Below are positions 37,908 through 40,603 of a DNA stretch of 40,603 nt, piece by piece. A program made the translations under genes and the position numbers. The stretch covers positions 1 through 40,603 of the IMG/VR virus record IMGVR_UViG_3300047997_000109, one strand, 5' to 3'. Source of the stretch: a virus. Below the pieces are notes generated by a model, which was not told the DNA's origin, did not search any database, and saw nothing but the letters and a program-made list of their open reading frames with translations. Numbering within the stretch: position 1 is the stretch's first letter; each line of letters starts with the position of its first letter.

Positions 37908-38090
37908 ATGACTGATGAATGTAAGGAAGATAAACGTAGACGTGCATTGGGTTTGTTTATTGAATCAGTATACAAACCAGATTCTGCACTTCGTCAATGT
38001 GCACACAACCAAGTGTGTTATAACGAGTTACTAGAATATAGAGATGAGGTGCTAGCTTATCTCTATAGTAAATATGATACGGATTTCTAA
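37908..38090 (+). CDS. 60-residue unknown protein
   Basis: ATG 37908 follows the previous stop directly. The product is helical, with a basic patch (KEDKRRRALGLFIESVYKPD), two Cys and an aromatic end (EVLAYLYSKYDTDF). Its stop overlaps by four bases the stop of the oxygenase gene that runs the other way (tail-to-tail). Function unknown. Confidence 0.6.
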   Translation: MTDECKEDKRRRALGLFIESVYKPDSALRQCAHNQVCYNELLEYRDEVLAYLYSKYDTDF

Positions 38091-38776
38091 CCGTATCCAC
38101 CAGCACCATACTGATCAATGATATGATCAGCAGGACGGATATAATGACCCATACTTGGGTCTTCTGTTCTATCATCAATGCGAGGAATTCTATTCCCCCA
38201 CGTTGTTGCAATGTATTTTGTACCACCGATTGGGGGATTTCCTCTATGCATATGTGTATAACCAGCTGGAAATACTACGGTCTTTCCCTTCTCTGGTTTC
38301 ACACGTACACCTTGATAAAGAAACTCTGTCTCTCCACCATTATGTACATCATTAAGGTATGAAGTAATGACAAACTCACGTTCCATTACTACAAATCCAT
38401 TGTTATCATAGTGCCAACGATGAAATCCACCACCAGCATATGTCTTCTGAATCTTAACTGCACTCATCCAGAAATCATTCAATCCAAGCTGTGTAAACTC
38501 ATTTAGATATTGATTCTTCATTAGTTTACCCCATCCTTTCAGTATACTATTACGTAACCGTGGATTGCAATCTTCAGTCATCCAATACTGGATATCTTTA
38601 CGGATGAAGGTATCATTATCTCGATGGATATCACCAAGCTCCTGACCTGCTTCAATGCGATCAGTGTAGTCACAAATCATATCACACACTTGTGGTGGTA
38701 TATGATTAGGATACTCTCTAATTAATGTATCGTGCTCAGTACGATGTTCTATTACTTCTCTAGCGTAATCCGCCAT
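38087..38776 (-). CDS. 2OG-Fe(II) oxygenase, HxD type
   Basis: ATG at 38776 (minus) gives 229 residues; GGAG lies 11 bases upstream. The core shows GGGFHRWHYD with His122 and Asp124 as iron ligands, the sandwich strand EREFVITSYLND, the distal His in AGYTHMHRGN (His177) and Lys187 in GTKYIATTW for 2-oxoglutarate. It is the paralogue of the gene at 13281 but keeps the normal HxD, and it has ~30 extra C-terminal residues ending GAGGYG. It should be an active hydroxylase of the P4H-like family; the substrate is unknown. It forms a two-gene minus-strand unit with the 58-residue gene upstream, overlapping it by 17 bases. Confidence 0.85.
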   Translation of the reverse strand: MADYAREVIEHRTEHDTLIREYPNHIPPQVCDMICDYTDRIEAGQELGDIHRDNDTFIRKDIQYWMTEDCNPRLRNSILKGWGKLMKNQYLNEFTQLGLNDFWMSAVKIQKTYAGGGFHRWHYDNNGFVVMEREFVITSYLNDVHNGGETEFLYQGVRVKPEKGKTVVFPAGYTHMHRGNPPIGGTKYIATTWGNRIPRIDDRTEDPSMGHYIRPADHIIDQYGAGGYG

Positions 38777-38936
38777 CAAAAATAAACTCCTTTGCTTCCG
38801 CAAAACTATCGAAGATAATGATTGTACCATCATCTAGCTTCACTGTAAAGCCTTCTTCCATTTCTGTTATCAAATGAGCAAACATCTGATCTTCAAGATC
38901 ATCCAGGTCAACCTCTTGGCAATTTCGACAACTCAT
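38760..38936 (-). CDS. Small unknown protein preceding the oxygenase
   Basis: ATG at 38936 (minus) opens a 58-residue frame that ends inside the start of the oxygenase gene, a 17-base overlap that suggests translational coupling. It has a CRNC pair at residues 3-6, an acidic helix (QEVDLDDLEDQMFAHLITEM) and a beta-hairpin-like part (EEGFTVKLDDGTIIIFDSFA). It may bind a metal through CxxC or partner the oxygenase, but neither can be shown from sequence. Confidence 0.6.
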   Translation of the reverse strand: MSCRNCQEVDLDDLEDQMFAHLITEMEEGFTVKLDDGTIIIFDSFAEAKEFIFDGGLR

Positions 38937-39662: not shown

Positions 39663-39691
39663 TTGACACTCACCCCCATCTCCTGTATAAT
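39663..39691 (+). promoter_or_regulatory. Consensus sigma70 promoter TTGACA-17-TATAAT
   Basis: TTGACA (39663-39668) and TATAAT (39686-39691) are both perfect and separated by 17 bases, the optimum. The -10 box is 28 bases from ATG 39714. This is the best promoter in the window and should be read strongly by host RNA polymerase. Its TTG also opens the following frame and should not be taken as the start codon. Confidence 0.9.
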
Positions 39692-40075: not shown

Positions 40076-40112
40076 TCACCACCTAGTGTCTCCACAGTTA
40101 CTATACAGTGCC

Positions 40113-40145
40113 TGTGGAAAAGGTTGTGGAAAAACCTGTGGAAAA
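40113..40145 (-). repeat. Three 12-base iterons containing DnaA-box-like TTTTCCACA
   Basis: TGTGGAAAA occurs at 40113-40121, 40125-40133 and 40137-40145, an exact 12-base period. On the minus strand each reads TTTTCCACA, which fits the DnaA-box consensus TTWTNCACA and, as I recall, the form typical of cyanobacterial origins. All three point the same way, and the block is bracketed by direct ACCTAGTGT repeats. Confidence 0.85.
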
Positions 40146-40248
40146 CTAAATGGTTAAATAAACATACCTAGTGTGTTCTATTCTTCGTATACTATGAGTT
40201 ATCTACGGTTAGCTGCGGGACTGTTGGGGTCTTAGCACGCAATCTACC

Positions 40249-40340
40249 GAAAGTCAAGAAACTCAGAAAGTTCAAAATCCCAAAAAGTCAAAAAACTCAA
40301 AAAGATAAGAAATTAAGAAAGTTCAAAAAGTTAAAATCTT
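40249..40340 (+). repeat. A-tract tandem repeats, unit 8-10 bases
   Basis: About eleven degenerate units such as AAGAAACTC, AGAAAGTTC, AAAAAGTC, AAAAAACTC and AAAAAGTT follow one another without interruption, with nearly all A-tracts on the plus strand. Strand-biased, near helix-phased A-tracts favour bending and easy melting. There is no open reading frame that explains the pattern. Confidence 0.75.
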
Positions 40341-40389
40341 ACTTTTTAAACTTTAACCACACTACACGTATACTGTACCTATAGTATGG

Positions 40390-40395
40390 TATAAT
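40390..40395 (+). promoter_or_regulatory. -10 box TATAAT within an inverted repeat
   Basis: TATAAT lies 27 bases before ATG 40417. TAGTAT (40382-40387) and ATACTA (40394-40399) form a six-base inverted repeat that overlaps the box and could bind a repressor. No -35 box is clear. Confidence 0.5.
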
Positions 40396-40416: not shown

Positions 40417-40603
40417 ATGACTACTAAGTACGAAGAACTACCTAGTTCAGCTATTGAATATATGGAACTAGACTACGATAGTTCTGTTGTTAAACTAGTA
40501 TACAAAAGCAATACTAGTAAGCAATATGGATATAAATGTGAAGACTTAGATGAATTTCAGTCAGCTTTTATGCAACTCTGTGGTAAACTAGAAGCTGAAC
40601 AAG
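40417..40603 (+). CDS. KTSC-like small protein, cut by the window edge
   Basis: An open frame starts at ATG 40417, 27 bases after TATAAT, and runs off the right edge (62 residues visible). The start (MTTKYEELPSSAIEYMELDY, then DSSVVKLVYKSN, QYGYKCEDLDEFQSAFM) fits the small KTSC-type domain: a Ser-Ser motif followed by two strands and a helix, usually about 60 residues. KTSC proteins are of unknown function and frequent in phages. The C-terminus is not seen. Confidence 0.65.
   Translation, partial: MTTKYEELPSSAIEYMELDYDSSVVKLVYKSNTSKQYGYKCEDLDEFQSAFMQLCGKLEAEQ

Follow-up and report, generated by a model that had tools for sequence, protein, structure and literature searches.

Clustered DnaA boxes beside an AT-rich tract suggest that T4-like cyanophages recruit host DnaA at a conserved non-coding element

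The window (the whole stretch of DNA that was analysed, 40.6 kb) is a genome fragment of a T4-like cyanophage, in agreement with the initial annotation. Three copies of TGTGGAAAA start at 40113, 40125 and 40137, without mismatch and with a period of 12 bp, just as had been annotated. Read on the minus strand each copy is TTTTCCACA, and the array at 40113-40145 holds the sole exact TTTTCCACA sites of the window. Three scattered copies of TGTGGAAAA were reached in 3 of 100 shuffles of the window, so three copies by themselves are weak evidence. The pair spaced at 12 bp occurs twice in the window with no mismatch, and two such pairs were found in none of the 100 shuffles when up to 3 mismatches were allowed; the 12-bp tandem of boxes is not due to chance. 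The direct repeats described earlier as flanking the block are both present (ACCTAGTGT at 40081-40089 and 40166-40174), but they proved to be a minor feature: the left copy is the counterpart of CTCCCTAGTGT, a motif common to relatives, whereas the right copy is missing in most relatives (contig L500 has a near-identical stretch).

The other parts of the element in the window are listed with the boxes in Table 1. A second, poorer match to the core elsewhere in the window was at chance level. No part of the window has a less stable duplex than the AT-rich tract, which is a candidate DNA-unwinding element. In the window approximately 100 bp separate the tract from the boxes, which it adjoins directly in D-type relatives, where the boxes lie just before it. 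The dyad and promoter found between core and AT tract are absent from the window, whereas relatives have a promoter 5′ of the tract. The homologue of the small downstream ORF in Sf-FR1 is annotated as a KTSC domain-containing protein. Elsewhere in the window, a perfect consensus sigma-70 promoter (TTGACA-N17-TATAAT, 39663-39691) lies ahead of a small ORF, and the 2OG-Fe(II) oxygenase gene is on the minus strand (38087-38833), whereas near the element in relatives it is on the plus strand.

Table 1. Positions of the boxes and of the other parts of the element in the window
Feature	Position	Strand	Remark
DnaA box 1, TTTTCCACA	40113..40121	-	Exact match; kept in either orientation in relatives
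DnaA box 2, TTTTCCACA	40125..40133	-	Exact match; nearly invariant among array-bearing isolates
DnaA box 3, TTTTCCACA	40137..40145	-	Exact match; nearly invariant among array-bearing isolates
Short AT-rich module AAATGGTTAAATAAACATA, directly beside boxes	40148..40166		AAATGGTTAAAAAAATATAGG-like in most relatives, with or without boxes
Conserved core GTTGKYTTAGC-N11-CGANNGTCAA, 2 mismatches in the window	40226..40257	+	One match per genome in six marine relatives tested
AT-rich tract, short repeats and terminal hairpin (arms 40318-40331, 40341-40354)	40249..40354		Tandem-repeat and inverted-repeat calls
-10 hexamer TATAAT, 5′ of next ORF, 3′ of AT tract	40390..40395	+	Sequence
Small conserved ORF after element, runs off record end	40417..40602	+	Syntenic in marine relatives

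The array is the best-conserved DNA of its neighbourhood. In a blastn search with the final 1.4 kb of the window, the array and its downstream flank matched 29 phage records, and a second short match further downstream was found in Sf-CH11 and Sf-CH1a only. A query derived from the element reached further genera, including S-PM2, S-RSM4, S-CAM4, S-WAM2, S-H38, S-CREM1 and DSL-LC03. Conservation of the boxes at the same locus in related cyanophages had been proposed as a check, and they are kept there: approximately 17 cultured species of Kyanoviridae carry, at the same place, a unique non-coding element of 300-450 bp, which is conserved at one locus across genera whereas the surrounding DNA is not. 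In marine members the element occupies a non-coding gap of approximately 270-575 bp between small genes, frequently with a 2OG-Fe(II) oxygenase gene just before it and a conserved small ORF after it. As locus markers both were rejected: the oxygenase is too widespread, and the downstream small protein was too divergent for an alignment search (a narrower alignment gave 25 loci). The order of parts in relatives, on the plus strand, is boxes, AAATGGTTAAAAAAATATAGG AT module, core, dyad TGTGMCA-N10-TGKCACA, -10 hexamer, long AT tract with hairpins, and ORF. S-H38 and DSL-LC03, which come from freshwater or estuaries, carry the array, yet neither the core nor an extreme AT tract near the array was found in them.

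In some records the array is overlain by hypothetical ORFs or tRNAs (Syn1_073; tRNA-Asn and tRNA-Leu in S-PM2), and these annotations look spurious. The two S-PM2 tRNAs (AJ630128, 19177-19333), probably spurious as they are, would be the evidence for a structured RNA or tRNA at the array. Such an RNA is very improbable: no Rfam match was found and no tRNA in the window, 40 elements gave no consensus structure on either strand, and the dyad arms lack covariation. A structured RNA, a riboswitch and a tRNA were rejected on these results.

IMG/VR was scanned with the exact core only, the boxes being left unused, and after merging of near-copies, together with the isolates, 75 distinct elements were obtained. 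At least two exact boxes were present in 25 of the 71 elements with enough upstream DNA (upstream side only), and none of the other 1,259 letter permutations of the box occurs twice in any of these 71 upstream regions. When both sides of the core were counted, 34 of the 70 complete elements had at least two boxes and 31 had no exact box. The boxes are arranged as direct repeats at 12 bp or in pairs that stand head to head, 13-14 or 21-24 bp apart; box 1 is flipped in S-CAM3, S-RIM32 and S-PM2. They occupy two non-homologous places, the second being directly before the AT tract and past an inserted ORF in several contigs. On the tree of the core, which is weakly resolved, box state changes at least 16 times. 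Such turnover around an unchanged 9-mer is the pattern expected from binding-site selection.

As to the binding protein, the word TTTTCCACA has been published as the DnaA box of cyanobacteria (PMC4674748). In electrophoretic mobility shift and footprinting assays DnaA binds cyanobacterial oriCs, described as three boxes and an AT-rich stretch, and DnaA domain IV binds box-carrying oriCs in vitro (PMC4674748). With several exact copies of TTTTCCACA close together, the phage array is by its sequence a cyanobacterial DnaA box cluster. It resembles the oriCs of Synechococcus elongatus, Anabaena and Cyanothece, which have the same TTTTCCACA, approximately three boxes in a cluster and an AT-rich tract nearby (PMC4674748), and it shares its 12-bp box spacing with the oriC of some Cyanobiaceae. 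In contrast to these oriCs, the array is found in a lytic phage, without adjoining dnaA or dnaN, together with a phage promoter and without a skew inflection. Exact boxes were present at approximately half of 27 Cyanobiaceae dnaN loci, for which the reversed control word gave one match. Of 201 host genomes only 4 have the 12-bp spaced pair, directly beside dnaN in 3 of the 4; the arrangement is thus common to host and phage, but so rare among hosts that the phage array was not recently copied from a widespread host oriC. No phage-encoded DnaA was found in the cyanophages tested. A weak Bac_DnaA match in Sf-CH11 was rejected as DnaA because it is below the cut-off and coincides with a weak DnaB_C match to a 341-aa frame; it is probably another ATPase, UvsX by position and size.

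At the place of the boxes, box-less elements often show a different repeated motif, TTGAGAATCAATAA, as though DnaA had given way to another factor. In L235, L438, L459, L489, L513 and other box-less elements it forms an inverted pair, TTCTCAATA ... TTGAGAATCAATAA, where boxes would be. That different factors may serve one slot leaves some room for a protein other than DnaA, of phage or host, which prefers TTTTCCACA-like sites and binds the array itself. We consider this improbable: the word and the host DnaA box are identical, and the word recurs in free orientation and spacing as no permutation of it does. Separately, the stretch from the AT module to the core holds a second short iteron-like repeat (AAAGATACTGT, or AAGGTGCGGTAGAG at a period of approximately 20 bp) in L440, L504, L506 and L521.

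In Syn1, S-RIM32, S-CAM4 and S-WAM2 no other 150-bp stretch of the ~190-kb genome is as unstable as the AT tract, and in S-PM2, S-RSM4, S-CAM1, Sf-FR1 and ACG-2014e the tract is within approximately the 0.1% least stable of the genome. An AT-rich tract of the unwinding type therefore lies near the boxes, as in an oriC. Cumulative GC skew had no extremum at the element in 8 whole genomes of relatives, and the skew change anticipated around the array was not found. GC skew was accordingly rejected as proof of an origin; it may say little about a phage whose replication becomes recombination-dependent.

The T4 origins oriF and oriG consist of a promoter and an AT-rich unwinding element and are opened by an R-loop (PMC3016281). 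The element of the relatives is like them in that a putative promoter, marked by a -10-like hexamer, lies directly 5′ of the candidate AT-rich unwinding element, and in the phages having their own gp41, a helicase present in all cyanophages searched. It differs in that the promoters of oriF and oriG need MotA, for which no match was found in 13 cyanophages (T4 control positive), and the window is without the upstream promoter. Likewise, gp59 was not detected in 10 marine cyanophages (T4 control positive). DnaA is not mentioned in a review of T4 origins (PMC3016281). A step done in T4 by the phage's own factors might here be served by host DnaA.

Two further systems bear some likeness to the array. 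T4 oriE is an origin with evenly spaced iterons, and their period of 12 nt is that of the cyanophage array. Homology was rejected, since the repeats detected in this T4 region, a 24-nt family, lie within the coding sequence of gene 5, are unrelated and contain no DnaA box, whereas the cyanophage array is non-coding. Near oriE in T4 (L320, NC_000866, 5403-5570) the 24-nt repeats are regular and lie inside gene 5, and the 12-nt iterons may reflect protein repeats. Phage-plasmids of the P1 type have host DnaA boxes inside a phage-encoded origin, but, in contrast to a lytic T4-type genome, they replicate in a plasmid-like manner with a Rep protein of the phage.

Taken together, the conserved locus, the identity of the word with the DnaA box, the extreme AT tract alongside and the 12-bp spacing of some host oriCs favour the reading that the array is a host-DnaA binding site and belongs to an origin from which T4-like cyanophages replicate, a reading to which we assign a probability of roughly 60%. 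This suggests that these phages recruit host DnaA to start the copying of their own DNA. DnaA binding, opening of the tract and use as an origin are all read from sequence comparisons, and the course of events would be as follows. Host DnaA-ATP would form a short oligomer on the two or three boxes; the oligomer would bend and stress the adjoining DNA and help to open the AT-rich tract, at which phage gp41 helicase, primase and polymerase would then assemble. In most relatives the promoter just 5′ of the tract could add an R-loop primer, as in T4 oriF and oriG.

Of the two functions offered by the initial annotation, the DnaA-dependent origin is thus partly supported, by conservation, box identity, the AT tract and the host-like spacing, and weakened by the skew result and by the elements without boxes. 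Counted against it are the lack of a skew extremum in the 8 genomes, the 31 box-less elements among 70, a window without the dyad-promoter module, and the exceptions S-H38 and DSL-LC03. With 31 of the 70 elements devoid of an exact box, many of the phages have an element that functions without DnaA, and DnaA dependence cannot hold for the whole family; DnaA is at most a lineage-specific component of the element. A more specific proposal, which we make tentatively and give somewhat less than an even chance, is a hybrid origin in which host DnaA, and not MotA or gp59, would mark and open the AT element for the phage replisome, the DnaA module having been repeatedly swapped for a factor reading TTGAGAATCAATAA. 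If so, the origin-recognition step would be exchangeable within one phage family.

The other function, a decoy that titrates host DnaA and so halts initiation on the host chromosome, fared poorly. Exact clustered boxes in every genome copy would be expected to compete for DnaA as copy number rises, but most genomes have two or three boxes at one site, counts elsewhere are not significantly above those of permuted words, and a decoy needs neither a fixed locus nor coupling to an extreme AT tract. Genome-wide, box enrichment in array-bearing phages was not significant, and neither was box depletion in box-less phages. We regard a decoy as highly improbable.

DnaA is also a transcription factor in bacteria, and DnaA bound upstream might tune the phage promoter that serves the small genes clustered behind the element, without taking part in replication. 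All 75 elements indeed have a -10-like hexamer at a nearly fixed distance, approximately 60 nt downstream of the core, and in 61 of the 75 the dyad precedes this hexamer. The boxes, in contrast to this rigid promoter, vary in position and orientation, being upstream, or downstream near the AT tract and sometimes past an inserted ORF; such freedom argues against direct contact with RNA polymerase. Moreover, the window retains the boxes and the AT tract, but not that promoter. A purely transcriptional switch is therefore unlikely, although it ranks above the decoy and above binding by another protein.

A search of titles and abstracts for cyanophages together with DnaA found no relevant paper describing such an element, and within the literature searched no origin seems to have been described for the abundant marine T4-like cyanophages. 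With the element, a test of initiation can be aimed at one precise place in approximately 17 cultured phage species, Syn1 and S-PM2 among them, and related phages with boxes (such as S-PM2 and Syn1) and without boxes (such as S-RSM4 and S-WAM2) offer a ready natural comparison. Should DnaA prove necessary, replication of the phage would be coupled to a cell-cycle protein of the host.

Additional copies of the motifs were observed downstream of the array in a few phages. DSL-LC03 has a second cluster of five exact boxes approximately 0.4 kb after the first array (OR003938, 80507-80579), and S-RIM32 and S-CREM1 have a second inverted box pair 0.6-1 kb downstream. In S-PM2 the 24-bp dyad recurs approximately 0.9-1.4 kb downstream (at about +865, +1146 and +1403 from the array), and it is possibly the operator of a set of early promoters.
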